Assembly: GCF_009725985.1 (NCBI RefSeq)
Contig: NZ_RCNR01000019.1
Coordinates: forward strand, 1 to 64,000
DNA: 64,000 bases
Source of the DNA: Zobellia amurskyensis
GTDB lineage: Bacteria > Bacteroidota > Bacteroidia > Flavobacteriales > Flavobacteriaceae
Direction of reading: 5' to 3'
Positions 3,423 to 38,387 of the stretch are shown here, piece by piece (the first letter of the stretch is position 1; each line of letters opens with the position of its first letter). The notes beneath the pieces were generated by a model that had not been told where the DNA came from, searched no databases, and saw only the letters and a list, made by a program, of their open reading frames with translations. The position numbers and the translations under genes are program-made.

Positions 3423-3431
3423 ATCATTGGT

Positions 3432-4805: not shown

Positions 4806-4815
4806 GGTATTGTAA

Positions 4816-6096
4816 TTATAGTCCGGATGCTACGGAGTTAGCGCCTCTTTCTTTGATTAAACTCTCTCTTACTTTTAAAGACCGATAAGCATCTATTGGG
4901 CTTAAAGCTCCACCTCTATTTAATCTTGCTTTTTCCAATAGTGGTCTAACATCTGTCCGGTAGGCATCTTGAAGAATCTCTTGACATTTAACAACATCAT
5001 GATTCAGTTGCGCCTCGGTTAATAATTCTTGATCAACAAGCAGTGCTTTTGCGTGCGCTTCTTGTATGGCCTCTAAAGATTGAATTAAATCTTCTAATGG
5101 GTCTTTTATATTATGACTGGCATCTATCATCCAGGCTGGATATGGATTCTGGGGATTATTTTCCATTCCATAAACCAATGCATTGAAAATCAAAAATAGG
5201 GCATAAGGTTTAACACTACCAACGGTAAGGTCATCATCGCCATATTTACTATCATTAAAATGGAACCCGCCCAGTTTTCCCTTTAGCATTAATGTTGAAA
5301 CAATTTGTTCAATATTAGTATTGGGTAAATGATGTCCTAAATCTACTAAAGTATATGCTTTGTCACCACATGCATTGGCAAGCATGAATGAGGTTCCCCA
5401 ATCTTGGATTACCGTACTGTAGAAATTAGGCTCGTAAGGCTTATATTCAATGAACATTTTCCAGTCCTCAGGAAGAGTTTTGTAAATATCCTTAAGACTA
5501 TCTTCTGTATTTTGGAATGCAGATTGAAAATTGGTTTGTCCGGGAAAATTAGAACCGTCTGCCAACCAGACCGTTAAACTTTTGGAACCTAGTTTATCTC
5601 CAATTTTTATTACTTCTATATTGTGTGCTATAGCTTGTTCGCGAGAAGCTTTACTTGTGTTGCTCAAAGAACCAAACTTGTAACTTTCCTTAGCGTTCTT
5701 TTGATCTTGAAAAGTGTTTGAGTTTACTGCATCAAATAGGATATTATGAGAGTTTGCTAAATCTTTGATAGCATTGTAATCCGTTGGAACATCCCATGGA
5801 ATATGCAATGATATAGCGCCCGCAGTTTGTGTGAGTGAATGAATCAATCCAACGTCATCAATTTTCAGTTCCAGACTTGAAGGTTCTCCTTGAAATCCAA
5901 AACGCCCGAATCTTGTGCCACCAGCACCCAAGGCCCAACTAGGTATTGCTACTTGAAAGTCTTGAAGTTTTTTGATAATGGCGTTAACATCTTTACCTTT
6001 TTTGGTAAGGGTATATCCTAAAAAATCGAAACGCTCATTATGCTCGGTGATACCTTTTTTATTGGTGTCACCAAGTTGGTTTTTATCTATTCTCAT
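4816..6096 (-). CDS. rhaI: L-rhamnose isomerase, Pseudomonas-type (RhaI)
   Basis: A TIM-barrel sugar isomerase of about 426 residues converts L-rhamnose to L-rhamnulose. Expected metal ligands are visible in order: Glu in FIEYKPYEPNFYS, Asp in LVDLGHHLPN, His in GFHFNDSKYGDDD and Asp in WMIDASHN. This matches the Glu-Asp-His-Asp set of the Pseudomonas stutzeri-type enzyme rather than E. coli RhaA. An in-frame ATG at 6144 would add 16 residues, but that extension lies inside a hairpin at 6120-6150. The start at 6096 (MRIDKNQLG) is therefore preferred. It is 78 bases downstream of rhaEW and 10 bases before rhaB in the same operon. Confidence 0.88.
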   Translation of the reverse strand: MRIDKNQLGDTNKKGITEHNERFDFLGYTLTKKGKDVNAIIKKLQDFQVAIPSWALGAGGTRFGRFGFQGEPSSLELKIDDVGLIHSLTQTAGAISLHIPWDVPTDYNAIKDLANSHNILFDAVNSNTFQDQKNAKESYKFGSLSNTSKASREQAIAHNIEVIKIGDKLGSKSLTVWLADGSNFPGQTNFQSAFQNTEDSLKDIYKTLPEDWKMFIEYKPYEPNFYSTVIQDWGTSFMLANACGDKAYTLVDLGHHLPNTNIEQIVSTLMLKGKLGGFHFNDSKYGDDDLTVGSVKPYALFLIFNALVYGMENNPQNPYPAWMIDASHNIKDPLEDLIQSLEAIQEAHAKALLVDQELLTEAQLNHDVVKCQEILQDAYRTDVRPLLEKARLNRGGALSPIDAYRSLKVRESLIKERGANSVASGL

Positions 6097-6119
6097 AAAG
6101 TTCTTGATTTTGGAAAAAT

Positions 6120-6150
6120 ACTTCCATGAACCGATCCGGTCCATGGAAGT
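6120..6150 (-). terminator. Intergenic hairpin between rhaEW and rhaI (attenuator or mRNA-stabilising stem)
   Basis: The arms ACTTCCATG (6120-6128) and CATGGAAGT (6142-6150) pair perfectly. After one mismatch, ACCG (6130-6133) pairs with CGGT (6137-6140) around a three-base loop. Read on the minus strand the stem is followed by A and five T, so it could act as a partial terminator or as a processing and stability element that sets the ratio of RhaEW to the downstream enzymes. The structure is seen directly; the role is inferred. Confidence 0.6.
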
Positions 6151-6174
6151 AAAAACAAACTAACTCAAAACAAA

Positions 6175-8280: not shown

Positions 8281-8304
8281 TTGAAGGGTTATTACGTTTG
8301 AGAG

Positions 8305-8349
8305 CAAAAGTATATGATGAAATAAAGCTTTGTGTCCTGTACTGTACCG
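8305..8349 (-). promoter_or_regulatory. Promoter of the rha operon with upstream 16-bp regulatory element
   Basis: On the minus strand the element CGGTACAGTACAGGAC (8334-8349) is followed, exactly 22 bp on, by TACTTTTG (8312 down to 8305), a perfect Bacteroidetes -7 box of the form TAnnTTTG. The rhaEW start codon follows 25 bases later. The same arrangement recurs at seven other places in the window, always in this orientation and spacing. The element overlaps where a -33 box would be, which fits an activator touching RNA polymerase. Confidence 0.75.
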
Positions 8350-10705: not shown

Positions 10706-12406
10706 ATGACAAAATCAAAAATAGTAGCCATGTGCTTCCTAATTAATTTTGCAATTGGGTGTAAAAATAAAACGGAAGTAACAGCACCAAAAGAACCAAC
10801 TCTGGAAAGGCCGAATGTTATTTTTATTCTAGCGGATGATTATGGCATAATGGATAGCCAAGCTTATGCTCATAAATTTTCAGGTGCGGAAACATCTGCT
10901 ATGTATTATGAAACACCCAATATAGATCGTTTAGTAAAGGAAGGTGTGGCGTTTTCACAAGCGTATGCTAATCAGCTGTGTTCACCAACACGAGCAAGTA
11001 TCATGACCGGTAAATATGCAAGTAGGCTTGGTTTTACAACAGCCATGCCGCCAAGAGAGACTTATTATAATCAAAATTTACCGGTACCTAACGGTTATTA
11101 TGCGAATGATGTTCTAGAGCACAAAGACCCTATAAAAATTGAACAAGCATTGAGGAATGGAGTTTCTAATTCCGCCGTTCCTGCAGGTTCTATTGTTGAC
11201 GGTGGTAATGATGAGCTTTCCATTGCGGAAGCCCTGAAAGCATATCATTCCGCCTTTATTGGAAAGTGGCATATTGGTGGTTTTGGAGCAGAAGGTTACC
11301 AACCATCTAACCAAGGTTTTGAACCTTTAGCTTGGTTTGATGCAGGAGGCTCGGTATACTATAATTGGAAAAAAGGATGGAACAATAAAGAGAAGACTCG
11401 TTTTCCTAAAATGCCACAAGAATTTTCTGAAATAGGAGATTCCGGACAAGAAACGGGTGAAGATTACTTAACGAACGACCTTACTGTTCAGGCTCTAAAT
11501 TATATTGATAAAAGGTCAAAAATAAAGGAAGAACCTTTTTTTCTTTATTTCTCCCATTTTGCCGTGCATTCTCCTTATCAAGGAAAAGAAGATGAAATCA
11601 ATTATTTTAAAAATAAAGCAACTAAAGGCTGGAACAATCATAAGGATCCAACTTATGCTTCTATGATTAAAACTTTGGATTGGTCAGTTGGTCAAATTTT
11701 GGGAAAACTAGAAGAAACAGGGCTTGACGAAAATACATTGATTGTTTTTATGTCTGACAACGGTGGTATAGATTCTAAAATTACACCAAGAGGAGAAGGT
11801 ACGGATAACAGCCCCTTTCTAGGAGGTAAAGCTTGTCTTACAGAAGGGGGTATTAGAGTGCCCCTCATTTTTAGATGGAAGGGAAAACTAAAAGAAGGGC
11901 AATGGGTAGATGTCCCTATTGATTGTACGGATATTTACCCCACTATACTAGAGGCTGCAGGGTACGATTCAAAATCTATTTCCCAAAAGAAGTCCTTAGA
12001 CGGGCAAAGTGTTTTAGGTTTATTGACAGACACTAAGAACGAACAGAATACCTATACTAAAACAACACATTATTGGCATTACCCTTTTAATGTTATCTAT
12101 AATAGTCCTTACGAACCTTACGCGCTAACACCTCATTCCGCTATACGTGACGGAGATTATAAGTTGATATTTGATTGGTACGGACGAATACATCTTTATA
12201 ATATAGCTGAGGACCCATTTGAGAAAAATGACTTGGCTCTAGAAAAAGAAAATTTAAAAAAACAGCTTTTTGATAAATTAATGGTTTGGGTAACAGCAAA
12301 TATTGAGGAGCGATATTGGCCCACAATTAATCCTGATTACAACGCGGCCGAAGAAGTTAGAAAGAACCCTTTTCAAGATTTGTTCTCTGCCTATACGAAT
12401 CCTTAG
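10706..12406 (+). CDS. Sulfatase, formylglycine-dependent S1 family, lipoprotein
   Basis: This 566-residue enzyme removes sulfate esters from polysaccharide fragments, probably on the cell surface or in the periplasm. A short lipoprotein signal ends at Cys19 (FAIGC). The alkaline-phosphatase-like fold starts with RPNVIFILADDYG, where the Asp pair binds the metal. CSPTRASIMTG carries Cys92, to be converted to formylglycine, and FMSDNGG near residue 350 supplies further metal ligands. The C-terminal subdomain ends with the usual RDGDYKLIFDW and LYNIAEDPFEKNDLA motifs. A 60-residue insertion between the start of the fold and GKWHIGGFG is unusual. The subfamily and sugar target cannot be read reliably. 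The nearby rhamnose genes suggest sulfated rhamnose or a neighbouring residue. Confidence 0.88.
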   Translation: MTKSKIVAMCFLINFAIGCKNKTEVTAPKEPTLERPNVIFILADDYGIMDSQAYAHKFSGAETSAMYYETPNIDRLVKEGVAFSQAYANQLCSPTRASIMTGKYASRLGFTTAMPPRETYYNQNLPVPNGYYANDVLEHKDPIKIEQALRNGVSNSAVPAGSIVDGGNDELSIAEALKAYHSAFIGKWHIGGFGAEGYQPSNQGFEPLAWFDAGGSVYYNWKKGWNNKEKTRFPKMPQEFSEIGDSGQETGEDYLTNDLTVQALNYIDKRSKIKEEPFFLYFSHFAVHSPYQGKEDEINYFKNKATKGWNNHKDPTYASMIKTLDWSVGQILGKLEETGLDENTLIVFMSDNGGIDSKITPRGEGTDNSPFLGGKACLTEGGIRVPLIFRWKGKLKEGQWVDVPIDCTDIYPTILEAAGYDSKSISQKKSLDGQSVLGLLTDTKNEQNTYTKTTHYWHYPFNVIYNSPYEPYALTPHSAIRDGDYKLIFDWYGRIHLYNIAEDPFEKNDLALEKENLKKQLFDKLMVWVTANIEERYWPTINPDYNAAEEVRKNPFQDLFSAYTNP

Positions 12407-12916: not shown

Positions 12917-15900
12917 ATGAAAAAAAGGTTAGGAAGAAATTCTCAGGGATTTCTAATTATTATGACCCTATTATGGGGTTTTGGAATGCAGGCACAAAGC
13001 ATTACAGTATCTGGTACTGTGATTTCTGCAGACGATTCGCAAGCCTTGCCCGGGGTTAACGTAGTCGTTAAAGGTACAACTACCGGGTCTGTAACAGATT
13101 TTGACGGGAACTACAGTATTGTGGCTCCAAATGCCAATAGTGTTTTGGTATTTACTTATTTAGGCTTTACTACCCAAGAGATTTCGGTTAGTGGTAAAAG
13201 TCAGATAGATGTATCCATGACGGAAGACGCGGCACTTCTAGATGAAGTTGTGGTGGTTGGGTACGGAACCCAGATTAAACGCCAGGTAACTGGTGCGGTT
13301 TCTACGATTCAAGCCAATGAACTTGCGGATATACCTGTTTCTCAGGTTACCCAAAAAATACAAGGTAGATTACCAGGGGTTCAAATTAATCAGGCTACGG
13401 GTAAACCGGGTCAGGGAATGTCGGTTCGGATAAGAGGTCAACTATCGGTTTCTGGTGGAAGTGATCCATTGTACGTGGTAGATGGTTTCCCAATTTCTGG
13501 AGGCATAAATACTATAAACCCTGATGAAATTCAAGACATTACAGTGCTAAAAGATGCAGCGTCTACGTCGCTCTATGGATCTAGAGCTGCAAATGGTGTG
13601 GTATTGATTACCACTAAAAGTGGTAGAGCAGGCGAAACAAGTGTGAGCCTAAATATGACCACCAGCATGCAGAGCGTTCCGCAACGTGGAAGAATAGAGA
13701 TGATGGACGCTGTTGAATTCGCTCAATTCAAAAAAGAATATTATGAGGACCAAGGTAGTCCTGTTCCGGATATTTTTCAGAATCCGGCTCAATATGAAGG
13801 TCAGACCAATGATTGGTATGATGCACTTTTGAGAACTGCACCTATGACCAATTATAATCTTAGTATTACTTCTAACAAAGAAAAATTAAAAACAACGGTA
13901 GTGTTGGGTTTCTTTGATCAAGAAGGAGTTGTGCTAGGATCGGATTATAAGCGATATTCGCTTCGTGCAAATTTAGATTATGCCTTATCCGATAAGATTC
14001 GTGTTGGGGTAAATATTGCACCTAATCACATCATAGATAACGTGCCAAGAACGGATGGTACTAGAGGTACTGGTCTTTTGTTCAACGCATTGCACACATG
14101 GCCAATTATGCCTATTTATAATCCGGATGGTACAAGAACGGAGTTTAATAGATTTCCAGCAGATACGGGTAATATCTTTTCTTACGCCAACTGGTTGAAT
14201 TCTGCAGAACGTATAAAAGATGAAACTAAGAGCGTCAACCTTTTGACGAATGCTTTTCTTGAGTACAAACCAATAGAAGGTCTTGCCATAAAAACGAGTT
14301 TGAATGCAGAATTATATAATGAGCAATATGAATTCTTCAGTCCAACTAACGCAACCTATTCAATCAATAGACCCGTACCAACTAATAACGAAGCCATTTG
14401 GGACGACCGAAATACATTTTCTTGGTTGAACGAAAATACGGTTACATATGATAAGAGCATAGGAGACCATACATTTTCCGTTTTAGGAGGTTTTACGTAT
14501 CAAAAATACCGTCAGGACCGCAACAGAGTTCAGGCGTCTGATTTTGCCGATGATCGTTTGCCAACTATACAAGGGGCAACTAATATCAACAGAAATGGAA
14601 CATTTGATGAAGTAAGGGAATGGAGTTTAGTCTCTTTTCTATCTAGACTTACTTATAATTATAAAGGAAAATATTTGTTGACCGGATCTATACGTAGTGA
14701 TGGGTCGTCAAGATTTGGGTCAGAGAACCGTTGGGGTACGTTCCCTTCTGTATCGGCAGGTTGGATAGCTTCAGATGAATCTTTCTTAGAAAATTCAGAG
14801 ACTATATCATTGTTAAAATTAAGAGGTAGTTATGGTGTTACAGGGAACAATAATATTGGTAATTACACCCAGTACGCCTTAATTGATAATACGGTAAATG
14901 CGGTTTTTGGTGATACTTTTGCACCAGGTTCAGCGGTAAATTCGCTTTCTAATTCAAACTTAGGTTGGGAGACGACCAAACAATTTGATGTAGGACTTGA
15001 TTTAAGTCTATTTAATGATAGGGTTTCTTTTGTTTATGATTATTACACAAAGAATACAACCAACTTACTTTATAATGTTCAAGTTGCCCGCGAATCCGGG
15101 TTTTCCAATTTTAGTGATAACATTGGTGAGATTCGTTTCTGGGGACATGAATTTGCTTTGAATACAGTAAATACAACCGGTAAATTTCAGTGGACTACCA
15201 ATGCCAATATTTCTTTTAACCGAAATAGGGTAGAAGCGTTAGCTGATGGAATTGATCGGGTATATGGTCCAGGAGGATGGCATATTACCCAAGTAGGACA
15301 ACCTTTTGGTCAGTTTTATGGTCATGTGTCGGATGGTGTATATCTAAATCAGCAAGATTTGGATAGCTCACCACAGGTTCCAGGTCGTTCAACAGTTGGT
15401 AGTATAAAGCTCGTTGATGTTAATGGTGATGGTATTATTACAAATGGAGGAGATTTTGATGACCGTGCTATTACCGGAAGTCCTTTTCCGGATTTTACCT
15501 ACGGTATTACAAACACTATTAAATATGGTAATTTAGACTTTTCAGTAGTGGGAACGGGTTCTCAAGGGAACGAATTATTAGTGCGCCACTTGTACAGTAC
15601 TACAAATCTTGATGGTGTTTTTAATCTTTTGCAAGATGTTGAAAATCGTTTTAGGTCGGTAGAAAACCCTGGCGACGGTTTTTATGGAACAACCGTTGGT
15701 GGTGGTAATGTTACTGGTATTGAAAGAGACTGGATAAACGATCGTTTTGTGGCTGATGCTTCTTATTTCAATATTAGAAATATCACCTTGGGGTATACTT
15801 TACCAGGGGTGGAGAAATATTTCAAGTCGGCTCGTATATACGGATCTATTCAAAATGTACACATATTTACCAAATATTGGGGTGGACCAAACCCTGAAGT

Positions 15901-16012
15901 GAGTGTGCAGAACGATGGAGATGGAGATGGTGGTAACCTTGCTTCCGGGGTGGATATCTCTGGGTATCCTGTTCCAAGAATCTTTAGTGTTGGTTTAAAC
16001 TTAAACTTTTAA
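12917..16012 (+). CDS. SusC/RagA-type TonB-dependent outer-membrane transporter (pair 1)
   Basis: The 1031-residue outer-membrane barrel imports oligosaccharides with its SusD partner, using TonB energy. A signal peptide ends near residue 27 (GFGMQAQ). It is followed by a carboxypeptidase-D regulatory-like domain (about 30-115; VSGTVISADDSQALPGVNV, TDFDGNYSI), then DEVVVVGYGTQ, and a plug domain with YVVDGFPI and AASTSLYGSRAANGVVLITTK (about 125-235). The 22-strand barrel ends in VGLNLNF. It has no STN domain, so it should not signal directly to an anti-sigma factor, unlike pair 2. The susD gene follows immediately. The promoter carries two regulon elements, so expression is expected to follow the rhamnose operon. 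Confidence 0.93.
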   Translation: MKKRLGRNSQGFLIIMTLLWGFGMQAQSITVSGTVISADDSQALPGVNVVVKGTTTGSVTDFDGNYSIVAPNANSVLVFTYLGFTTQEISVSGKSQIDVSMTEDAALLDEVVVVGYGTQIKRQVTGAVSTIQANELADIPVSQVTQKIQGRLPGVQINQATGKPGQGMSVRIRGQLSVSGGSDPLYVVDGFPISGGINTINPDEIQDITVLKDAASTSLYGSRAANGVVLITTKSGRAGETSVSLNMTTSMQSVPQRGRIEMMDAVEFAQFKKEYYEDQGSPVPDIFQNPAQYEGQTNDWYDALLRTAPMTNYNLSITSNKEKLKTTVVLGFFDQEGVVLGSDYKRYSLRANLDYALSDKIRVGVNIAPNHIIDNVPRTDGTRGTGLLFNALHTWPIMPIYNPDGTRTEFNRFPADTGNIFSYANWLNSAERIKDETKSVNLLTNAFLEYKPIEGLAIKTSLNAELYNEQYEFFSPTNATYSINRPVPTNNEAIWDDRNTFSWLNENTVTYDKSIGDHTFSVLGGFTYQKYRQDRNRVQASDFADDRLPTIQGATNINRNGTFDEVREWSLVSFLSRLTYNYKGKYLLTGSIRSDGSSRFGSENRWGTFPSVSAGWIASDESFLENSETISLLKLRGSYGVTGNNNIGNYTQYALIDNTVNAVFGDTFAPGSAVNSLSNSNLGWETTKQFDVGLDLSLFNDRVSFVYDYYTKNTTNLLYNVQVARESGFSNFSDNIGEIRFWGHEFALNTVNTTGKFQWTTNANISFNRNRVEALADGIDRVYGPGGWHITQVGQPFGQFYGHVSDGVYLNQQDLDSSPQVPGRSTVGSIKLVDVNGDGIITNGGDFDDRAITGSPFPDFTYGITNTIKYGNLDFSVVGTGSQGNELLVRHLYSTTNLDGVFNLLQDVENRFRSVENPGDGFYGTTVGGGNVTGIERDWINDRFVADASYFNIRNITLGYTLPGVEKYFKSARIYGSIQNVHIFTKYWGGPNPEVSVQNDGDGDGGNLASGVDISGYPVPRIFSVGLNLNF

Positions 16013-16070
16013 ATCATAAACTACGATGTCAAAACATATTTCACTTTCGACAAAATTTAAAACTGAAAAA

Positions 16071-17567
16071 ATGAAAAAGATATTCTACTGTATCGTAGCG
16101 TCCATGACCTTTTTGGTCAGCAGTTGCGATGACGAATTAACTATATTTCCCGAGGACTCATTAAGTGTTCCTACGTTCTTTAAAACCGAAACGGATTTTA
16201 CGCAAGCAGTTAACGGTGCTTACGTTCCGTTGCGCCTGATTAACAATCAGGCAAAGCCTTATTTAGCGGAAATGCATTCCGATAATACGTATTTTGCGCG
16301 TAACACCGCCTTTGGTGCAACGGATAATCAAGAAGATATTGCGGACCACTCTATACCTAGTGACGGCGGCATTACGGCCAATACTTGGGTGGAACAGATA
16401 TACCGCGAATATTATCAGATTGTAGCTCGTACCAATCAAATTCTAACCACTATTGATGATGCGGAATTTGATGAAACACCCAAGGCTAATCTTAAGGGTC
16501 AGGCTCTCTTTTTAAGAGCATATGCTTATTTTGAACTAACGCAGTTGTTTGGTAGTGTGCCTATGCACCTAGAACCTGTATTAGATCGTGATGGGGCAGC
16601 TTTACCTCTTTCTAGCGAGGACGAACTTTATGCGCAAATTATTGAGGATGCTAAAGGGGCTGCAGGATTATTACCGCTTAAATCAGACCAAGAACCGGGT
16701 AGGGCTACCTCGGGTGCGGCCCAAACACTTTTGGCCAATGTTTATATGGTGCGTGAGCAATGGAGCGAGGCAGAAACTTTACTAAAAGCCGTTGTAGCCA
16801 GTAATGAATACATGCTAATGCCTAATTATGAAGATGCTTTCTCCGGAAATAGTGAAAACAAGAACAACATGGAGTCTGTTTTTGAAATTCAATATAGAGA
16901 AGGTGCAGAAGGTTTAAATGGCAGCTTTTTATATAACTTCCTTCCAAGACCTATTACTGCAGAAGAAGTTGGTGCTATTACGGGAACATCTAACGCTCAG
17001 CCGGTTAATGGAGAGGGAAACAATATTCCTACACCGGACATAATTGATGCTTACGAAGATGGAGATCTAAGGGAAGATGCTTCAATTATGTACGTAACTA
17101 TTAGCGAAAGTTTTTGGGAAGATGGTGTTTACCCAATTATTAAAAAATATGTTGAGCCACATGCATTACATGGTAACCATGGTATGAACTGGCCAGTATA
17201 TAGGTATTCCGAAGTTTTGTTGTTTTTAGCGGAAGCTTTGGAAGAACAAGGTAAAGGGGGCGAAGCTCTTCCTTACCTAAACGAGGTTCGTACACGTGCC
17301 GGTCTTGGTGCACCTACAGGTGATCTAGGTGAAGCAATTTTTAATGAAAGAAGGGTAGAGCTTGCTTTTGAGAACAAAAGATGGTTTGACTTGGTAAGAA
17401 CTGGACGTGCAATAGATGTGATTACGGCCCATGGTAATAAGATAAAGGCAAACCCAATTGACTATTACTATCCTGCAGGAGTAGAACCACGTGGTAATGT
17501 CTTTACCAATATTTCTGAACGATACGCTCTTCCTGCTTCGGAGTCCTCTCTGAATCCTAATTTTTAA
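16071..17567 (+). CDS. SusD/RagB-type surface glycan-binding lipoprotein (pair 1)
   Basis: A surface lipoprotein of about 498 residues acts as the lid on its SusC barrel and binds oligosaccharides. An in-frame ATG at 16026 exists, but the proper lipoprotein signal begins at 16071 (MKKIFYCIVASMTF), with the lipobox LVSSC, so that start is preferred. SusD marks include LKGQALFLRAYAYFELTQLFG (a TPR-like helix), ATSGAAQTLLANVYM, YRYSEVLLFLAEALEEQG, LNEVRTRAGL and FNERRVELAFENKRWFDLVR. Its start lies 58 bases after the end of susC and a hairpin follows the gene, so the pair forms its own transcript. Confidence 0.93.
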   Translation: MKKIFYCIVASMTFLVSSCDDELTIFPEDSLSVPTFFKTETDFTQAVNGAYVPLRLINNQAKPYLAEMHSDNTYFARNTAFGATDNQEDIADHSIPSDGGITANTWVEQIYREYYQIVARTNQILTTIDDAEFDETPKANLKGQALFLRAYAYFELTQLFGSVPMHLEPVLDRDGAALPLSSEDELYAQIIEDAKGAAGLLPLKSDQEPGRATSGAAQTLLANVYMVREQWSEAETLLKAVVASNEYMLMPNYEDAFSGNSENKNNMESVFEIQYREGAEGLNGSFLYNFLPRPITAEEVGAITGTSNAQPVNGEGNNIPTPDIIDAYEDGDLREDASIMYVTISESFWEDGVYPIIKKYVEPHALHGNHGMNWPVYRYSEVLLFLAEALEEQGKGGEALPYLNEVRTRAGLGAPTGDLGEAIFNERRVELAFENKRWFDLVRTGRAIDVITAHGNKIKANPIDYYYPAGVEPRGNVFTNISERYALPASESSLNPNF

Positions 17568-17802: not shown

Positions 17803-18618
17803 ATGAGTAAAAATAGTAGAGCATCTAAATTAGTGGCAAAGAGCCTTTTTGCTTTAACACTACTGTTATGTTTTCAATCTTGTAAAGAAAAAAAACAGGA
17901 AAATATTAGTGAAGCCACAGTTGAAGATCAAGAAATAGGAGATGGCTTTGTAAGCATCTTTGATGGTAAAACCTTAACGGATTGGAAAGGTGATAGTACA
18001 TATTGGCGTGTTGAAAATGGAAATTTAGTAGGTGAGGTAACCCCTGAAACTCTGTTAAAAAGTAATACTTTTATTATTTGGCAAGGAGGTCAACCAGATG
18101 ATTTTGAATTGAAGTTGGAATTTAAAATCGCTGAATCAGGGAATAGTGGTATTAATTATAGAAGTGATTTGATTGATACAATTCCAAATGCCATGAAAGG
18201 GTACCAAGCAGATATTGACGGTAAGAGAAGATATACAGGTCAAAACTATGAGGAGAAAAAAAGAGCCACCTTAGCCTATCGTGGTGAGAAAGTGATTATA
18301 AATAGTCAAGATAACCCTGAAGTTGAAGGTTCTTTGAGAGCCAATGTGAAAAGCAACTGTTGGCAGAGTAGGGAAGTGGTTGGTTCTTTGGGCGAATCAG
18401 ATTCCCTTAAGAGCAAAATAAAGAGTGAAGACTGGAACGAGGTACACCTTGTTATTAAAGGTAATAGACTTCAACATTATGTAAATGGAGTTTTAATGAG
18501 TGATGTTAATGATGAAGACACTGTAAATAGAAAGTTAAAAGGACATTTAGGAGTACAAGTTCATGTAGGCCCACCAATGAAGGTAGAATATAGAAATATT
18601 AGGCTGAAGAATTTGTAA
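17803..18618 (+). CDS. DUF1080 / 3-keto-disaccharide hydrolase-like lipoprotein
   Basis: The 271-residue lipoprotein (signal ending LLCFQSC) carries one concanavalin-like beta-sandwich domain of the DUF1080 (PF06439) type. Typical marks are GDGFVSIFDGKTLTDWKGD near residue 46, WRVENGNLVGE, FELKLEFKIAESGNSGINYRS, and the ending WNEVHLVIKGNRLQHYVNGVLMSDVND and PMKVEYRNIRLKNL. Some members cleave 3-keto-glycosides made by Gfo/Idh/MocA-type dehydrogenases. Such a dehydrogenase lies 4.5 kb downstream on the same strand, which supports that role here. The peroxiredoxin gene follows after 31 bases and probably shares its transcript. The actual substrate is unknown. Confidence 0.82.
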   Translation: MSKNSRASKLVAKSLFALTLLLCFQSCKEKKQENISEATVEDQEIGDGFVSIFDGKTLTDWKGDSTYWRVENGNLVGEVTPETLLKSNTFIIWQGGQPDDFELKLEFKIAESGNSGINYRSDLIDTIPNAMKGYQADIDGKRRYTGQNYEEKKRATLAYRGEKVIINSQDNPEVEGSLRANVKSNCWQSREVVGSLGESDSLKSKIKSEDWNEVHLVIKGNRLQHYVNGVLMSDVNDEDTVNRKLKGHLGVQVHVGPPMKVEYRNIRLKNL

Positions 18619-18649
18619 CAGTATAAATTAGTAAAGAAAGATAATTACA

Positions 18650-19225
18650 ATGAGTGAATTACAAGATTTTCAAAAGTTGGTTATTTCAAATGCAAGTCAT
18701 GTTAAGGGATTAGCAGTGGGTGATAAAGCTCCTGATTTTACCTTGCCCAATGCATTAGGTAAAGATATTTCGCTTTCTGAAATGCTGAAGTCGGGCATTG
18801 TAATTATCAAATTTTATAGAGGGGAATGGTGTCCTATTTGTAATTTGGATTTGAAGGAGGTACAAAGTAAGTTACCGGAGATTAAATCTTACGGAGCTTC
18901 CTTTTTAGCAATAAGTCCGCAAAACCCTGATGGAGCATTAACGGCAAAAGAAAAAAACAGTCTGGACTTTGAGGTGCTTAGTGATGCGAATCAAAATGTC
19001 ATTAAAGCATACAACCTTCAGTTTGATCCAGGTGAAGATTATCACGCACGGCGCGATTTGACTCTTCTAAATGGTAATGGTTCAAAAACACTTCCTGTTC
19101 CAGCTACTTTTATAATTAATATCAATCAAATAATAGAGGCGGCTCATGTAGAAGCTAATTACACAGAAAGAATGGGCGTATCTGAAATCCTTACTGTACT
19201 TAAAGATTTGGCGGACAGGAATTAA
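18650..19225 (+). CDS. Peroxiredoxin-like (AhpC/TSA) thiol protein
   Basis: The 191-residue thioredoxin-fold protein has no signal peptide, so it is probably cytoplasmic. GDKAPDFTLPNALGKDISLSE opens the AhpC/TSA domain, and GEWCPICNLDL carries a CxxC pair (Cys61, Cys64) at the peroxidatic position. The cis-Pro segment is PVPATFIININ. Peroxiredoxin-like proteins of this kind reduce peroxides or disulfides. Its place after the DUF1080 gene (31-base gap) is unusual for a polysaccharide locus. It might protect against peroxide arising from sugar oxidation, but that is speculation. The next gene has its own regulated promoter starting about 50 bases downstream. Confidence 0.82.
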   Translation: MSELQDFQKLVISNASHVKGLAVGDKAPDFTLPNALGKDISLSEMLKSGIVIIKFYRGEWCPICNLDLKEVQSKLPEIKSYGASFLAISPQNPDGALTAKEKNSLDFEVLSDANQNVIKAYNLQFDPGEDYHARRDLTLLNGNGSKTLPVPATFIININQIIEAAHVEANYTERMGVSEILTVLKDLADRN

Positions 19226-19277
19226 CTTGTTGGACGAGTCTAAAATATGAATAGAAAGAAGTAAACCCATGCATTCT

Positions 19278-19322
19278 CAGGACAGCACAGGATGGGTAAT
19301 GACGCTATAACATATAAGTTTG
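19278..19322 (+). promoter_or_regulatory. Promoter of the sulfatase-rhamnosidase fusion gene with 16-bp element
   Basis: CAGGACAGCACAGGAT (19278-19293) ends 22 bp before TAAGTTTG (19315-19322), an exact TAnnTTTG box. The start codon at 19395 leaves a leader of about 65 bases. Orientation and spacing equal those at the rha operon and SusC 1 promoters. Confidence 0.75.
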
Positions 19323-19394
19323 GGAAAGATTTTTTTCAACTTCTTAGTTTGAACTAAAAATCTAAGTTCATCGAATTTAATAAATACCGAATTT

Positions 19395-22300
19395 ATGAGA
19401 ATAAGAGTTCTAGCAGCAACCTTTCTTTGCGGGTGCATACTACCATTAACGGCGCAAAAAGCGACGCAAGAACAGCAGGCCGAAAAGCCTAACATTATTT
19501 TTATTTTAACGGATGATCAACGTTTTGATGCGTTGGGTTATGCAGGCAATAAATTCATTTCTACACCTGAAATGGATAAATTGGCAAAAGACGGTACCTA
19601 TTTTGAAAATGCCATGGTGACCACTCCCATCTGTGCCGCCAGTAGAGCTAGCATTCTAACCGGACTTTATGAACGTACACATAGCTTTAATTTTCAGACA
19701 GGAAATATTAGAGAGTCATATATGGCAGAATCCTATCCTTCCATTTTAAAGGAGAATGGATATTTTACCGGTTTTTATGGTAAATACGGAGTTAGGTACG
19801 ATAATCTAGAAAATCAATTTGACGAATATGAGTCTTATGACCGTAACAATCAATATAAAGACAGACGCGGCTATTACTATAAAACCCTAGGTAAGGATAC
19901 GGTTCATTTAACACGATATACAGGACAAAAAGCAATTGATTTTATTGCAGATGTAAAGACAGATGAGCCTTTTTGTCTTTCCTTGAGTTTTAGTGCTCCT
20001 CATGCCCATGATGGGGCTGAGGACCAATATTTCTGGCAAGGGGAGTCAGATGCTTTGCTTCAGAATATCAATATGCCCAAAGCGGATTTGGGAGAGGATA
20101 AATACTTTGAGGCCCAACCTAAGTTTGTGCGTGATGGTTTTAACCGTTTGCGATGGACGTGGAGGTACGATACTCCCGAAAAATATCAACATAGCGTAAA
20201 GGGCTATTACCGAATGATTTCTGGTATAGATCGGGAAATTGCCAAAATAAGGACTGAGCTAGAAAAGAAAGGACTTGCAGATAACACGGTTATTATTCTA
20301 ATGGGAGATAACGGTTATTTTTTAGGGGAGCGCCAGCTTGCGGGTAAATGGTTGTTATATGATAACTCTGTTCGCGTGCCTTTAATTGTATATGACCCAA
20401 GGGTAAAAAGACAAAAAGATAGTGATGCATTGGCATTGAATATAGATGTGCCTTCTACCATTTTAGATTTAGCTGGAATAGCCCCGCCAAAAACATGGCA
20501 AGGAAAAAGTCTTATGCCTATCGTAGAAAAATCGAAGAAAGACTTTAAGCGGGATACGGTATTGATCGAACACCTTTGGGAGTTTGATCATATTCCACCA
20601 AGCGAAGGAGTCCGCACTAAAGATTGGAAATACTTCCGCTATGTAAACGACCAGTCTTTTGAAGAACTTTACAATTTAGAAGACGACCCTAAAGAGATTA
20701 ACAATCTTGCAAAAGACTCAAAATATGCGGAAAAGTTAGCAGCATTTCGCAACAAAACCAATAGTCTTATACTTGAGCTTTCCGATGACTATTCCAAAGG
20801 CCCGAGCGATTTGGTTATAGAATGGATACGAAACACGGAAGGGGTTACGGTAATTGATACGAAACCAGAATTTGGATGGGTAGTGCCGGACGGAGCGGTT
20901 TCACAATCGGCCTATCAAATACTGGTGGCTTCATCCAAAGAAAAGATAAACAACAATATTGGTGATGTTTGGGATAGTGAACAAATAAGAACCAGCGCGT
21001 CATCAGAAATAGAACATGGAAGTACTGAGTTGAAAAGCGGAGAGACCTATTTCTGGAAAGTGCGTATTTGGGACCAAGACAATCGGCTTTCAAGGTATTC
21101 TCAAAGTCAGTCTTTTACAATGGGAAGTCCTAAGGCTACAATAACTACACCCAACAGTTTTCAAATCGATAAAATTCAACCCGTCAAATTTGAAAAAAGA
21201 GGCGAAACCTATTTCATGGATTTTGGAAAAGCAGCTTTTGCAACTCTAGACTTTACATATAAAACTAAAGTGAGTGACAGCCTTACTTTTAGAATAGGAG
21301 AACAGCTAGATGGTGAAAACATTAACAGAACACCTTTCCATAGAAGCCATATCAGATATCAAGAAATTAAAATGGCTGTAAACCCTAATCAAACAGAATA
21401 CCAACTTCAGGTACAAGTAGATGAAAGAAATACAAGACCAGGCAAGGCGCTACCACTTCCAAAAGATTTTCCGGTTTTGATGCCGTTTAGATATGTTGAG
21501 GTAGATGGTGTAAAAGAATCTGTTACAGCAGAAGATTTTACATTATTGGCTCATCATAGTTATTGGGAAGATGATGCTAGTAGTTTCAAAAGCTCGGATG
21601 ATATTTTGAACCAAGTTTGGGAAATCTGTAAATACACGATTAAGGCCACTACTTTTAATGGACTCTATGTAGATGGTGACCGTGAGCGTATTCCGTACGA
21701 GGCAGATGCGTATTTGAACCAATTGAGCCATTATACCACTGATCGTGAGTATGCTATTGCTAGACAGACCATAGAATACTTTATGGAGCACCCAACATGG
21801 CCTACCGAATGGCAGCAGCACGTGGCGCTTATGTTTTATGCAGATTACATGTATACCGGTAATACGGAGCTAATTGAGAAATATTATGACCGTTTAAAAT
21901 ACAAGACACTTTATGAGCTTTCTAATGAAGAAGGGCTGATAACTTCTACTAAAATGACACCGGAGTTAATGAAGAACCTTGGTTTTTCTCCGCAATTGAA
22001 AGAGACCTTTAGAGATATTGTAGATTGGCCGTCTGCCGGTTGGGGTGGAGACCCATCTAATAAAGGGGAACGGGATGCTTACGTTTTTAAGGATTACAAC
22101 ACTGTGGTAAATGCATTCTATTATCAGAATATGAATATCATGGCCGAATTTGCAAAAGTTTTAGGTAAAACAGAGGAAGCAAGAGATTTTGAACTCCGTG
22201 CTTTAAAAGCGAAAAAAGCGGTCAATGAAAATATGTTCGATTCGGAGCGAGGTGTTTATGTAGATGGTATAGGAACAGACCATGCTGCCCTGCATGCCAA

Positions 22301-22916
22301 TATGCTGCCTTTAGCTTTCAATATGGTGCCGGAGGAGCATATTTCTTCTGTTGTGGAACATGTAAAATCGCGTGGAATGGCATGTAGTGTTTACGGTTCA
22401 CAATATTTAATGGACGGACTTTATAACGCAGGAGCAGCAGATTACGCTTTAGAATTGCTAACGGACACCAGTGATAGAAGTTGGTACAACATGATTCGTA
22501 TCGGGTCTACAATGACTTTGGAAGCTTGGGATTTGAAGTATAAGAATAATCTAGATTGGAACCATGCTTGGGGTGCTGTGCCAGCTAACGCAATTCCACG
22601 TGGACTTTGGGGTATTCAACCTAAAACGCCAGGATTTGGAATTGCTACTATAAAACCTCAAATGAGCGATTTAAAAAATAGCAGCATTGAAGTACCTACT
22701 ATAAAAGGAACGATAAAAGGAAGCTACAAATATGAAACTCCTAGGCTTCAAATTTTTGAAATTGAGATTCCTGCCAATATGGTTGCGGAATTTGAAATTG
22801 CCCCGTCGCCCGGTAAAGAACTTATGCACAATGGTAAGAAAGTAAATGCTGCTTTTGGCTCAGTACGTTTGGAACCAGGTAAGCATGAAATTAAATTAGT
22901 GGTCAATTCTTTTTAA
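19395..22916 (+). CDS. Two-domain enzyme: S1 sulfatase fused to GH78 alpha-L-rhamnosidase
   Basis: The 1173-residue exported protein has a signal peptide ending near ILPLTAQ. Residues about 30-465 form a sulfatase: [15 protein letters not shown], the formylglycine motif [11 protein letters not shown] (Cys80; Ala replaces the usual Pro, which the sulfatase consensus allows), [16 protein letters not shown] and [15 protein letters not shown]. From about residue 475 a GH78 rhamnosidase follows: an Fn3-like part ([20 protein letters not shown]), a beta-sandwich, and the alpha/alpha barrel with [11 protein letters not shown] holding the likely acid Glu, [14 protein letters not shown] and TMTLEAWD. 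One chain could desulfate a rhamnose and then release it. A similar sulfatase-GH78 fusion is known, as I recall, from the ulvan locus of Formosa agariphila. The upstream promoter carries the regulon element. Confidence 0.92.
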
Positions 22917-23106
22917 AGATTCTTTATTTTTTTAATTGTAAAGGGTACATTTATAAAATGCAAATCAATTTATTTTTATACTTATATAAAAATATATGTA
23001 TAGAGATTGACCAAATTTTTGGAGTAGCTAAACCCGGAAATATCCAGTTGTAAGGCTATGGCAACCAAATTTTATCACAAGATTATAAAATTAAAGAATT
23101 ACAATA

Positions 23107-24444
23107 ATGAAAACATCTAGAAGAAGTTTTATTCAGAAAACAGCATTGGGAACTACGGGTGCTATATTGGGTAGTTCTAGCTTATCGGCTAAGAGTTACA
23201 GAAAAGTGATGGGTGCTAATGATAGAATCCAAGTAGCCATTGCAGGTCTGGGACGACGTGTTAGTGCTATGTATACACCAATAGAGTTAAAGAGTAACAA
23301 TGTAGAGCTGTTATACCTTTGCGATGTTATGGAGAGTCAGCGTGTAAAAGCGGCTTCGGAAATGTCCAAGCGATTAGGCTATACTCCAAAACTTGAAAAC
23401 GATATTAGAAAAGTTCTTGAAGATAAAAAAGTAGATGCGTTGTTTAACTTAACTCCTGATCATTGGCATGCTCCAGGTTCTATAATGGCGTTAAAGGAAG
23501 GAAAACATGTTTACGTAGAAAAGCCATGTAGCCATAATATGGCCGAAAATGAATTACTTGTGGCGGCTCAGAAAAAGTACGATCGTGTGGTGCAAATGGG
23601 GAACCAACAACGTTCTGCGGAGCATAGCATTGATATTATAAAGCAAATTCATAATGGTGTAATCGGTAAGCCATATAAGGCGGTTGCTTTTTTTAGTAGT
23701 AAACGAGGAGAGGTGCCACTTCAAAAAGCAGCACCCATTCCTGCAGGTCTGGATTGGGAATTATTTCAGGGACCTGCTGTTCGTCGTGATTATACTTCTG
23801 AAACGTGGAATTACAATTGGCATTGGTACGGATGGAATTATGGTACGGCAGAATTAGGTAATAACGGTACGCATGAGTTAGATGTAGCGCGTTGGGCATT
23901 GCAAGTGGATTTTCCAAATCATGTAGAAGCAGATGGTATTAAATCAGCTTTTGTTGATGATGGTTGGGAAATGTACGATACTATGGAAGCTACTTTTAAG
24001 TTCGATAATAATACAACCATTAAATGGGATGGTAAAAGTAGAAATGGATATTCTACCTATGGTGGAGGTCGTGGTACCATTATATACGGTAGCGAAGGTA
24101 GTGTTTATGTAAACCGAAACTTGTACAAGTTGTATGACAGAGAGGGTAACTTGGTAAAAACAGTTAACGCAAAAACGAAAGAAGGCGGAATAGAGCTTGG
24201 CGGCGGTGGCGGAATGACTACCGTACACGTTGGTAATTTTTTCAATACAATTAGAGGAAAAGAAACATTACAAGCACCAATAGACGATGCATCAAAAAGT
24301 ATGGCATTAGTTCACTTCGGTAATGTAGCGTATAGAATTGGTAATGGTTTTGATATAGATTCCAAAACCGGGCGAATGCTAGACCGTAAAGCATTGGCTT
24401 TATGGGGTAGGGAATATGCCAAAGGCTGGGATGTAAAACTTTAA
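23107..24444 (+). CDS. Tat-exported Gfo/Idh/MocA-family oxidoreductase
   Basis: The 445-residue NAD(P)-dependent sugar dehydrogenase family protein begins with a twin-arginine signal (SRRSFIQK, then a Gly/Ala/Ser-rich stretch), so it is exported folded with its cofactor. The Rossmann motif is VAIAGLGRRVSAMY near residue 42. The family lysine lies in VYVEKPCSHN near residue 141, and the catalytic-region helix is WNYGTAELGNNGTHELDVARWAL. Periplasmic members with this layout oxidise or transiently oxidise sugars, some at C3. With the DUF1080 protein upstream this hints at oxidative glycoside cleavage (inference). It is 190 bases downstream of the sulfatase-GH78 gene and ends at a strong terminator. 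Confidence 0.86.
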   Translation: MKTSRRSFIQKTALGTTGAILGSSSLSAKSYRKVMGANDRIQVAIAGLGRRVSAMYTPIELKSNNVELLYLCDVMESQRVKAASEMSKRLGYTPKLENDIRKVLEDKKVDALFNLTPDHWHAPGSIMALKEGKHVYVEKPCSHNMAENELLVAAQKKYDRVVQMGNQQRSAEHSIDIIKQIHNGVIGKPYKAVAFFSSKRGEVPLQKAAPIPAGLDWELFQGPAVRRDYTSETWNYNWHWYGWNYGTAELGNNGTHELDVARWALQVDFPNHVEADGIKSAFVDDGWEMYDTMEATFKFDNNTTIKWDGKSRNGYSTYGGGRGTIIYGSEGSVYVNRNLYKLYDREGNLVKTVNAKTKEGGIELGGGGGMTTVHVGNFFNTIRGKETLQAPIDDASKSMALVHFGNVAYRIGNGFDIDSKTGRMLDRKALALWGREYAKGWDVKL

Positions 24445-24460
24445 TTTTAATAAGTAATGA

Positions 24461-24507
24461 AATCGGGGGTAATATAGCTAAAAGCTATATTACCCCCGAT
24501 TTTTTTT
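24461..24507 (+). terminator. Strong rho-independent terminator at the end of region B
   Basis: A perfect 19-base stem (24461-24479 with 24483-24501) has the core GGGGGTAATATAGCT, an AAA loop, and runs into a continuous T tract to 24507. It separates two converging genes and may also stop the minus-strand sulfatase transcript, though the T tract favours the plus strand. Confidence 0.92.
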
Positions 24508-31250: not shown

Positions 31251-32384
31251 CTACTTCATTGTGATTATTTTTTCATTTATTTCATAATTTACTTCGTTGG
31301 TATTCTGTATGATATTCAATATTTCATTGAGCTCTAGCGTTTTTCTAAAAACGCCGTTGAAGGTCAAATTCTTTATACTTTCATTTTGAAAAGTAACGTC
31401 AATGTCATACCAGCGCGAAAGCACTTTCATAATATCCTCTAAGGATTGGTTTTTAAAGCTGAAAAGACCATCTTTCCAAGATATTACGTTGTAGACATCT
31501 ACCGTAGAAACGACTAACTTATTTGTAGTACGGTCAATTTTTGATTGATGCCCGGGAGTAAGGCTTTTAGAGTCATTTCCGTTTTTGACCAAAACCTTGC
31601 CTTCCACTAAGGTCGTGGATATCTGGTCATCATCGCCATAGGCTTTAATGTTGAACTCCGTGCCCAGTACTTCTATTTTTTGATTTTCTGTTTTTACAAT
31701 AAATTGAGAACCATTGTGTTCAGTGCTAGGAGAAACATCAAAATAGGCCTCGCCATATACCAATTCTATTTCCCTGGTTTTATCAGCGGTAAAGGCTACG
31801 GGATATTTTATCTGTGTTCCAGAGTTGACCCATACCTTGGTGCCATCATTAAGGACTAAAAAAAACTGGCCTCCCCTGGGAATGGTAAGGATATTTTTAC
31901 TTGTGCTTTCTTCGGGCACTCTCCTCTTGTTGTAGACCAATTGCTCGCCATTGCTTGACGCTTTATCCGTTTCAAAGCTTTCTCCTTTTTCTAAAAGAAT
32001 TTTTGATCCATCCTCTAAGGTAAGTGTTGCTTTTTCCGAACCAATACGAATCTGTTTTTTATGAACAACAGTAGGTTCTAAGGTGGGTGTTATTTCGGTA
32101 TTTTCTATGTTCCAGTACCATGTCAGGATAGTTGAAAAAAGTAAGACAACGGCGGCAGCATATTTATAAGACGAATAACTTTTTTTCTTTTTTTTGATTT
32201 TTATAGAAACATCGGCCCAACCTTTTTGAACATCAACTATATCAATCCCTTTAGAATAATTGTTTTTAACTTTATCAAAGTAGTCTCGGTGAACTTTGGA
32301 TTCGCTATACCAAGCCTCGAAAATTTCGTTTTCTTCCGTGGTTAGGGTATTGTTAACTTTCTTTAGAATCAGTTTGAAATCCAT
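31251..32384 (-). CDS. FecR-family anti-sigma factor
   Basis: The 377-residue inner-membrane protein has a cytoplasmic N-terminal part (about 1-70) that should hold the sigma factor. One membrane segment follows near residues 75-92 (YAAAVVLLFSTILTWYW). The periplasmic FecR domain (about 140-240) includes LTIPRGGQFFLVLNDGTKVWV and GEAYFDVSP. The C-terminal DUF4974-like domain (from about 305) includes GLFSFKNQSLEDIMKVLSRWYDIDVTF and receives the signal from the STN domain. It sits between the sigma gene (121-base gap) and susC 2 (96-base gap), the standard order sigma - FecR - SusC. Confidence 0.93.
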   Translation of the reverse strand: MDFKLILKKVNNTLTTEENEIFEAWYSESKVHRDYFDKVKNNYSKGIDIVDVQKGWADVSIKIKKKKKSYSSYKYAAAVVLLFSTILTWYWNIENTEITPTLEPTVVHKKQIRIGSEKATLTLEDGSKILLEKGESFETDKASSNGEQLVYNKRRVPEESTSKNILTIPRGGQFFLVLNDGTKVWVNSGTQIKYPVAFTADKTREIELVYGEAYFDVSPSTEHNGSQFIVKTENQKIEVLGTEFNIKAYGDDDQISTTLVEGKVLVKNGNDSKSLTPGHQSKIDRTTNKLVVSTVDVYNVISWKDGLFSFKNQSLEDIMKVLSRWYDIDVTFQNESIKNLTFNGVFRKTLELNEILNIIQNTNEVNYEINEKIITMK

Positions 32385-32505
32385 TAGTGTGTGATTACTT
32401 ATATCTATAGGACAATCAAATTCTTAAAATGGGTGACAAAAAATTGTAAAAAAACTAAATTTAAGCTTGAATATATGAGGATATGATGTTTTGAAAGGTG
32501 TTTTA

Positions 32506-33066
32506 CTATAGAGAAAATAATAGAATAGCCAAAGAAACGGTAAGTTCCCCCAACTTGGCCTTGGCCCGTTTTAATTGGGTCTTTACGGTGTTTATAGAGA
32601 CATTTAACTCGTCTGCTATTTCTTTATATCGATAGTTCTCCCTAAAACGTAGTTCTACAATAGAGCGCATTCTTAGCGGTAAATTCTCTATGATATTTAG
32701 AGCCTGTTGATTTCGGATTTCCTTTTCTTGCTCAATGGACCAATCTGGCTCCTGGTCAAATGATAAAGAAATTTGTGCATTTAATATATTTGAATCATCT
32801 GTAATTCTTAATGCCTTTAACTTATTCAAACATTTATTGCGCACCATAGCGTACAAATAGGCTTTCAGGTTTGTTTTAAGATTAATTCTATTGGATTTCT
32901 CCCAAAGACGAACAAAAACTTCTTGCACCGCATCTTCGCTTGAAGACTTATCAAAAAGATAACCATGGGCATAGGTTACCAACTCATGGTACATACCATC
33001 AAATAGCCTTTTAAAAGCAAAATGATTTTTATTTTGTATTTCTCCTAAGATGGTTTCTAAATCCAA
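32506..33066 (-). CDS. ECF sigma-70 family RNA polymerase sigma factor
   Basis: The 186-residue protein has sigma region 2 at about residues 15-85 (FKRLFDGMYHELVTYAHGYLFD, SEDAVQEVFVRLWEK). Region 4 lies at about 125-180 (LPLRMRSIVELRFRENYRY, EIADELNVSINTVKTQLKRA). It should direct RNA polymerase to the susC 2 operon when freed by the FecR protein next to it. The C-terminus ends in a short hydrophobic tail (SLAILLFSL). Its own promoter carries a 16-bp regulon element (33089-33133), placing this sigma factor under the rhamnose-linked regulator. Confidence 0.92.
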   Translation of the reverse strand: MDLETILGEIQNKNHFAFKRLFDGMYHELVTYAHGYLFDKSSSEDAVQEVFVRLWEKSNRINLKTNLKAYLYAMVRNKCLNKLKALRITDDSNILNAQISLSFDQEPDWSIEQEKEIRNQQALNIIENLPLRMRSIVELRFRENYRYKEIADELNVSINTVKTQLKRAKAKLGELTVSLAILLFSL

Positions 33067-38226: not shown

Positions 38227-38387
38227 AGCGTCTAAATTCATCTTTAAAAGTGCTTCGTCATAAGAAAGGACTAGTTTACACTTTAAATTAAAATTGGTTT
38301 TTCTATTCTTTTAAAGCATCTTTTCGTAGATTTTGTGTGCAAATTACTGCAGGCATTTGCCCGCTAGTAACAAAGTCCAATCCGTAC

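Follow-up and report, generated by a model that had tools for sequence, protein, structure and literature searches.

Separated halves of two putative oxidative 3-keto-glycoside cleavage modules in an ulvan/rhamnan-type locus of Zobellia amurskyensis

Why should genes for a DUF1080 lipoprotein and a Gfo/Idh/MocA oxidoreductase (hereafter Gfo) surround a sulfatase-rhamnosidase fusion in a marine flavobacterium, and are the two proteins each other's partners? The question is raised by a 64,000-nucleotide stretch of Zobellia amurskyensis DNA, referred to below as the window (contig C19 of a 5.14-Mb genome). The original prediction held that these proteins, helped by a neighboring peroxiredoxin, oxidize rhamnose at C3 after its desulfation and break the glycosidic bond by elimination. 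The four gene families that it named are indeed present. All four open reading frames (ORFs) lie on the plus strand with their expected ends (271, 191, 1173, and 445 aa), and Pfam assigns them to 3keto-disac_hyd (PF06439, E 3.8e-38), AhpC-TSA (E 1.6e-28), Sulfatase plus Bac_rhamnosid6H (E 6e-48 and 2e-46, both in the fusion), and GFO_IDH_MocA (E 1.1e-11). We favor, with a probability of about one half, a composite reading: a P36-type ulvan/rhamnan locus recruited two modules for oxidative 3-keto-glycoside cleavage, and the window combines them. Module A would comprise a glycoside 3-dehydrogenase (Gfo) exported by the twin-arginine (Tat) pathway and a tandem DUF1080 eliminase/hydratase, and module B a PVC-type cytochrome dehydrogenase, an FG-GAP protein, and a single-domain DUF1080 lipoprotein. 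Of these, the window retains Gfo from module A and DUF1080 from module B, and neither has its customary partner in cis.

Module A is seen most clearly in gene neighborhoods. Among 299 Flavobacteriaceae genomes, 55 matches to the window Gfo (E ≤ 1e-150) occur in 52 genomes, and the neighborhoods of all but the window's own copy, 54 in number, were retrieved; 38 of 93 matches, weaker ones of about 44–52% identity, stand outside these counts. In 48 of the 54 neighborhoods the Gfo gene is immediately preceded, on the same strand, by a two-domain (tandem) DUF1080 gene, and in 22 a second Gfo gene lies directly downstream. All 52 Gfo-bearing genomes have a tandem-DUF1080 match (two of these partial), and 27 of the 38 weaker Gfo matches also have such a gene within 3 kb. 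Outside the family, a search of 295 genomes of the class (E ≤ 1e-110) yielded ten further Gfo matches for examination, of which seven adjoin a tandem DUF1080 (one on the opposite strand) and one more a DUF1080 ORF of 238 aa. In the Z. amurskyensis genome itself, six of 16 DUF1080 matches fall within 5 kb of one of its 33 Gfo matches, with about one expected by random placement. Co-occurrence of the two families thus reaches well beyond the window, including into S1_25-GH78 loci, and the original prediction survives the refuting condition that it set itself, a lack of such co-occurrence. By ORF reading, a tandem DUF1080 directly upstream of Gfo is not present in the window.

What this Gfo might do is suggested by its relatives. 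The closest in sequence among solved structures is the Alistipes glucoside-3-dehydrogenase AL3 (8tdf, 97 bits; 8tdh, 95 bits), AL3 has the highest query TM-score (template-modeling score, 0.68) among the 50 fold matches listed, and the best NCBIfam model is NF058561, BT_2158 glycoside 3-dehydrogenase (140.9 bits, residues 4–276). The predicted resemblance to known glycoside 3-dehydrogenases is thus upheld by sequence, with Gfo judged a relative rather than a member of NF058561. A twin-arginine motif, SRRSFIQK, can be read by eye, its R5, R6, and F8 being invariant in all 23 aligned rows. K139 and H256 are likewise invariant and align with the EKP lysine and the following histidine of 8tdf, residues whose roles in AL3-type enzymes we take as given; the Asp found four residues before the His in 8tdf is Asn252 in the window Gfo. 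We regard the protein, on these similarities, as a candidate glycoside 3-dehydrogenase.

Might it instead be a stand-alone, NAD-recycling glycosidase of the GH109- or GH188-like kind, with all steps in one active site and the DUF1080 protein a sugar-binding lipoprotein? Glycosidases of the Gfo/Idh/MocA family are known, and 8qc6 appears among the fold matches of Gfo; in fold the DUF1080 protein is similar to CBM66 and lectins; and self-recycling would be convenient for a periplasmic Gfo, which would have no free NAD pool. On the other hand, Gfo is nearer in sequence to the dehydrogenase structures than to GH109 6t2b, which scores only 23.2 bits in a sequence search, and the frequency with which a DUF1080 or a TIM-barrel gene adjoins Gfo argues for a separate eliminase. 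The TIM barrels come from the exceptional loci. Six neighborhoods have no upstream tandem DUF1080: a contig end truncates L209, Gfo is directly followed by a TIM-barrel (AP_endonuc_2) gene in L161 and L176, and neither partner is found in L157, L175, and L181. A TIM-barrel gene also adjoins the remaining two Gfo genes found outside the family (L279, L280), and in all four loci the product is a xylose-isomerase-like TIM barrel with a signal discernible by eye. In Agrobacterium, a TIM-barrel protein is a demonstrated β-eliminase of 3-keto-glucosides, according to the available text of PMC10628242. By analogy with that enzyme, one eliminase fold may possibly have been exchanged for another, and such a substitution of a TIM barrel for DUF1080 would be consistent with elimination by a separate enzyme. 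We consider the stand-alone glycosidase quite improbable.

The composite reading also turns on the window DUF1080 protein, which passes the PF06439 cut-off comfortably (131.9 vs 26.8 bits) and carries a lipobox by eye (...LLCFQSC, Cys27), the Ser-Cys of which is kept in 13 aligned orthologues of at least 66% identity. Its fold model (predicted local distance difference test, pLDDT, 78.9) is nearest to BT3469 (4jqt, Z 19.9) and matches the 3-keto-glycoside eliminase/hydratase 9fbe with Z 17.9 (2.6 Å over 184 residues), making it a candidate eliminase/hydratase or binding protein. By profile it is N-type (76.7 vs 37.7 bits). Among tandem proteins the motif HPDA occurs in 38 of 45 C domains and in 0 of 45 N domains; it is seen in AL2 (8v31), 4hxc, and domain 2 of 4jqt, with MPDA instead in 3h3l, and we infer that it matters for catalysis. 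As far as sequence can tell, the window DUF1080 is of a different lineage from the conserved tandem partner of Gfo.

The recurrent company of the single-domain protein is a series of genes in the order SusC, SusD, PVC-type cytochrome dehydrogenase, FG-GAP, DUF1080, and orthologues of the window SusC (77–87% identity) head this operon in relatives. Single-domain orthologues occur in 36 of the 299 genomes (E ≤ 1e-60). Where one lies in a fusion locus (19 loci), a PVC gene is found within three genes in 14 and an FG-GAP gene in 11. A close PVC gene (≥70% identity) is present in 13 of the 299 genomes, a count that leaves aside 20 of 33 matches as more distant (42–47%); all 13 also have the DUF1080 gene, and the two are at most 6 kb apart in 11, the exceptions being Z. 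amurskyensis and its congener G236. The DUF1080 gene of the window has no PVC-type dehydrogenase gene adjacent to it. In Arenibacter palladensis (L082), where the PVC protein bears a cytochrome c domain and scores above the cut-off of TIGR02603 but below that of TIGR02604, a complete module B accompanies the fusion and Gfo with no tandem DUF1080; this locus may be an intermediate between separate modules and the window arrangement.

How closely is the oxidoreductase tied to ulvan-type enzymes? Residues 15–466 of the fusion match the solved sulfatase half of 6hr5, 'Alpha-L-rhamnosidase/sulfatase (GH78)', with 747 bits; the protein is 96% identical to its Zobellia barbeyronii homologue and combines a sulfatase site, CAASR (C-x-A/S-x-R), with a GH78 domain, as a P36-type enzyme should. 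P36 of the Formosa agariphila ulvan polysaccharide utilization locus (PUL) has the same two domains, S1_25 and GH78, and on ulvan oligosaccharides is described, in the available text of PMC8511951, as acting in two successive steps, desulfation followed by release of the non-reducing rhamnose. The label of a rhamnan/ulvan-type locus is therefore reasonable, with the reservation that the Pfam scan shows a single lyase-like match. What sets the window apart is that its fusion adjoins Gfo and DUF1080, whereas the main text of that paper never uses the term 'oxidoreductase'. One scan, with the best 80 matches kept, gave 79 fusion-homologue loci, 12 of which hold a Gfo orthologue (62–98% identity); in eight of the 12, a tandem DUF1080 gene overlaps this orthologue or directly adjoins it, the tandem form being confirmed by Pfam in L041. 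Across the 299 genomes we count 31 complete fusion copies, seven of 38 matches being partial (one GH78 half, six sulfatase only). Gfo lies within 12 kb of 14 of the 31 and tandem DUF1080 within 12 kb of 12; conversely, 14 of the 55 Gfo matches, the window included, have a complete fusion that close. The corresponding 13 of 54 retrieved neighborhoods leave out L207, with a GH78-half homologue only, and L193, in which the locus boundary truncates the fusion.

The association also follows lineage. On a tree of 65 Gfo proteins (20 fusion-linked, three outgroup paralogues), the fusion-locus label requires 5 changes, compared with 17.4 for shuffled labels, and 0 of 500 shuffles are as low. The window's clade of six is entirely fusion-linked; within it the tandem DUF1080 is kept only in L156. 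Because L156 and the sister L158 both keep the gene, Zobellia, L082, and L157 probably lost it secondarily. The fusion locus is itself accessory within Zobellia, congeners G001 and G236 having no fusion match at the threshold used. Elsewhere in the Z. amurskyensis genome (C39:14143-15807), a second S1_25-like sulfatase is 68% identical to the sulfatase half of the fusion and has no GH78 half.

A number of observations count against the composite reading and must be set beside this evidence. By fold, Gfo is similar to many Gfo/Idh/MocA enzymes, and AL3 ranks only 14th by E-value among the 50 matches listed; the NF058561 score lies far under the 750-bit cut-off. The DUF1080 model also resembles CBM66 and galectin-like proteins (Z 15.4–15.7), so that the protein may be a sugar binder only, and HPDA is absent from it and from all 51 distinct single-domain orthologues of at least 50% identity. 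The single-domain DUF1080 lies within 12 kb of only three of the 55 Gfo matches. Even its own usual company is inconstant: of 37 matches, the window and G176 (in L179) aside, 35 neighborhoods from the 299 genomes were newly retrieved, and only 11 hold a PVC gene, with FG-GAP in 11, a close relative of the window's rhamnose-type aldolase/dehydrogenase in three, and Gfo in one. Within the stretch covered, 67 of the 79 fusion loci have no Gfo orthologue, and 41 of the 54 Gfo neighborhoods have no complete fusion within 12 kb, so Gfo and the fusion do not need each other and the module is not ulvan-specific. Co-occurrence p-values over the 299 genomes take no account of shared ancestry or of the general abundance of sugar-degrading genes in these genomes. 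We know of no activity for any member of the Gfo or DUF1080 subfamilies seen here. The generality of the BT2157-type pathway is questioned, too, by the lack of a growth defect on raffinose-family oligosaccharides upon deletion of BT2157 and BT2158, as given in the available text of PMC11501099.

Some of these points bear equally on the model of the original prediction, that the window Gfo and single DUF1080 are a self-sufficient pair, oxidizing rhamnose at C3 once S1_25 has removed its 3-sulfate and then eliminating the rhamnosidic bond. The two genes may be transcribed together: between 17803 and 24444 the sole listed plus-strand terminator-like site is weak and internal to the fusion gene (at 20032), and a hairpin with a perfect stem directly follows the oxidoreductase, which makes a single transcription unit for the four genes plausible. 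The trio of DUF1080, fusion, and Gfo is also found in L082 and in two other species of Zobellia (L017, L080), and S1_25 would expose O3 of the non-reducing rhamnose, to go by the available text of PMC8511951. Such a route, however, would compete with the fused GH78, which would hydrolyze off the same rhamnose, and each protein has another conserved partner. The rarity of Gfo near this DUF1080 (together in three of 79 fusion loci) and the missing HPDA motif tell against the pair as well, and we think it unlikely. Hence, of the original prediction, the general notion that rhamnan/ulvan loci may contain an oxidative cleavage module is strengthened by the tandem pair that recurs beside the fusion; the particular pairing in the window, in which a single-domain DUF1080 takes the place of the conserved partner, does not stand, and neither does the peroxiredoxin.

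The missing partners may lie elsewhere in the genome. Contig C16 carries a PVC operon without DUF1080, its PVC protein a 73% relative of that in L082, and next to a Gfo paralogue there is a tandem DUF1080 interrupted at the ends of contigs C77 and C32 (probably pieces of one gene). Such relatives of both usual partners would suit another explanation, that the two halves are co-regulated but separate, DUF1080 working in trans with the C16 PVC dehydrogenase and Gfo with the C77/C32 tandem protein, and sharing a locus only because their substrates derive from one polysaccharide. In congener G001 (L246), moreover, PVC gene and DUF1080 share one operon beside a window-like rhamnose set. Yet the trans partners are assigned by family only, and the tandem DUF1080 adjoins a Gfo of its own, 47% identical to that of the window; we find this explanation doubtful, and retain the composite reading.

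The operons just mentioned are of interest in themselves. That of L246 runs PVC, DUF1080, DUF4432, p402, TIM barrel, hydrolase, TIM barrel, and levoglucosan-dehydrogenase-like Gfo, beside rhamnose-type genes (families from L231). The C16 and G001 versions (L265:7252-16317 and L246:6625-16587), which share the PVC dehydrogenase, DUF4432, a 402–403-aa protein, two TIM barrels, the hydrolase, and the levoglucosan-dehydrogenase-like Gfo, look like a complete sugar oxidation pathway, and we know of no pathway that matches them. The 402-aa protein (L231:11342-12550) has no Pfam or NCBIfam match and is 94% identical between genera in the PVC operon. Beside the fusion, Gfo, and DUF1080 genes of L082 (15255-18278) are genes for a GH115_C-containing and a ThuA-family protein (Pfam), relatives of one or both occurring in L019, L020, L074, and L156; ThuA has been linked to 3-keto sugar use in Agrobacterium.

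From gene identities, gene order, conserved partnerships, and lineage, all directly established, a route may be sketched for the composite reading. Oligosaccharides would enter the periplasm, where the S1_25-GH78 enzyme would desulfate them and then trim the non-reducing rhamnose. Gfo, using carried NAD, would oxidize C3 of an exposed sugar of the ulvan-derived oligosaccharide, elimination across C1–C2 would break the glycosidic bond, and hydration would give a 3-keto sugar that could then be reduced. Elimination and hydration would fall to the local DUF1080 or, in trans, to the tandem DUF1080 of C77/C32 or another DUF1080. We doubt that C3-desulfated rhamnose is the substrate of Gfo, since that rhamnose is cleaved off by the fused GH78; the next exposed residue, xylose or uronate, is as likely.

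Comparable systems are known. BT2157/BT2158 of Bacteroides and AL2/AL3 of Alistipes also join a Gfo-type 3-dehydrogenase to a DUF1080 eliminase/hydratase, of the same families by Pfam, sequence, and fold, and the BT2157-type pathway is reportedly the subject of a 2024 paper in Nature. They differ from the window, whose Gfo falls far below the NF058561 cut-off, whose DUF1080 is an N-type single domain where the partner is normally tandem, and whose setting is a sulfated-polysaccharide PUL. Caulobacter LacABC, in which LacA is a GMC enzyme, again combines a dehydrogenase with a DUF1080 protein, whereas the window-related sets use Gfo (module A) or a PVC-type cytochrome (module B). In the available text of the sources, BT2158 appears as a glycoside 3-dehydrogenase of the periplasm (PMC11300592), and LacABC and the DUF1080 protein CCNA_01705, with a putative signal peptide, take part in disaccharide use (PMC9007349). 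The Agrobacterium OGE/HYD/Gfo operon shares the logic of oxidation, elimination, hydration, and reduction, and its eliminase belongs to the TIM-barrel family found beside Gfo in four of our loci; as far as the text of PMC10628242 is available, it differs in having a TIM-barrel rather than a DUF1080 eliminase and in not being a polysaccharide locus. A LacABC identity considered for genes beside the pair in L189 was rejected, the genes reading as ilv-like; a few kb beyond is a cluster of GMC oxidoreductase, gluconate-dehydrogenase subunit 3, DUF1080, and TIM-barrel genes (Pfam). Ulvan degradation itself is described, in the available text of PMC8511951, in terms of lyases, hydrolases, sulfatases, and a dehydratase, and in the accessible part of the open-access literature we found no description of a Gfo/DUF1080 module in ulvan loci.

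There remain the other genes of the window, the principal features of which are collected in the table; 27 of its 41 listed ORFs were covered by the Pfam scan. The minus-strand genes at 840–8307 are read as rhamnose catabolism from the gene set. The peroxiredoxin, rejected as part of the system, is judged a bystander because it shows no signal peptide by eye and occurs in only five of the 79 fusion loci; in these it directly precedes the fusion, three with and two without DUF1080 or Gfo nearby. Being NAD-linked, Gfo enzymes are not expected to produce peroxide. A hybrid two-component regulator (Reg_prop, HisKA, receiver, AraC; Pfam) at 38337–42560, directly after a sulfatase gene, is a likely sensor for this locus. 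At 31251–33066, an ECF (extracytoplasmic function) sigma factor (Pfam) and an ORF resembling a FecR-type anti-sigma factor (read by eye) adjoin a minus-strand SusC/SusD-like pair. A second PUL-like block (48452–62994) encodes GH88, an esterase, two S1 sulfatases, GH97, a heparinase II/III-like protein, a β-helix protein with PDZ, and a GH29 α-L-fucosidase fused to a GDSL esterase (Pfam); the heparinase II/III-like protein (55767–58604) is the sole lyase-like match among the 27 scanned ORFs.

Table. Positions of features in the window, and of the TIM-barrel genes next to Gfo in other loci, with the basis of each assignment
Feature	Position	Strand	Basis
ORF without Pfam match	840-2258	-	Pfam; rhamnose-catabolism set member by gene set
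FMN dehydrogenase	2274-3422	-	Pfam; rhamnose-catabolism set member by gene set
FGGY kinase	3432-4805	-	Pfam; rhamnose-catabolism set member by gene set
TIM-barrel isomerase-like	4816-6144	-	Pfam; rhamnose-catabolism set member by gene set
Aldolase II/short-chain dehydrogenase fusion	6175-8307	-	Pfam; rhamnose-catabolism set member by gene set
S1 sulfatase, head of PUL	10706-12406	+	Pfam PF00884, E 1e-47
SusC-like transporter	12917-16012	+	Sequence reading only; orthologues 77-87% identity
SusD-like lipoprotein	16026-17567	+	Sequence reading only; orthologous to SusD of PVC operon, 72-86% identity
Single-domain DUF1080 lipoprotein, N-type	17803-18618	+	PF06439, fold match, motif test
AhpC/TSA peroxiredoxin-like protein	18650-19225	+	Pfam
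S1_25-like sulfatase-GH78 α-L-rhamnosidase fusion, P36 type	19395-22916	+	Pfam; PDB 6hr5; PMC8511951
Gfo/Idh/MocA oxidoreductase with twin-arginine signal	23107-24444	+	8tdf/8tdh match; NF058561 below cut-off
Intrinsic-terminator-like hairpin, perfect 20-bp stem then T's	24459-24503	+	Directly 3' of oxidoreductase
TIM-barrel (AP_endonuc_2) beside Gfo	L161:8390-9253; L176:10644-11549; L279:8034-8891; L280:10564-11427		Pfam

As a tentative and rather less probable extension of the composite reading, oxidative 3-keto cleavage could be a recurrent, unrecognized branch of green-algal sulfated polysaccharide catabolism, in which the Gfo/tandem-DUF1080 pair moved repeatedly into S1_25-GH78 loci and gave rise to lineages particular to fusion loci, its eliminase being exchanged in Zobellia for the DUF1080 of a second, cytochrome-linked module. 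The pair thereby defined for work on ulvan oligosaccharides is Gfo with tandem DUF1080, not the one first proposed. If the reading is true, a conserved 3-dehydrogenase/DUF1080 module would add a redox-based bond-breaking step to ulvan degradation. In this seaweed-associated marine bacterium, the halves of two oxidize-then-cleave sets beside an ulvan-type enzyme hint that algal sugars may be cleaved oxidatively as well as hydrolytically.

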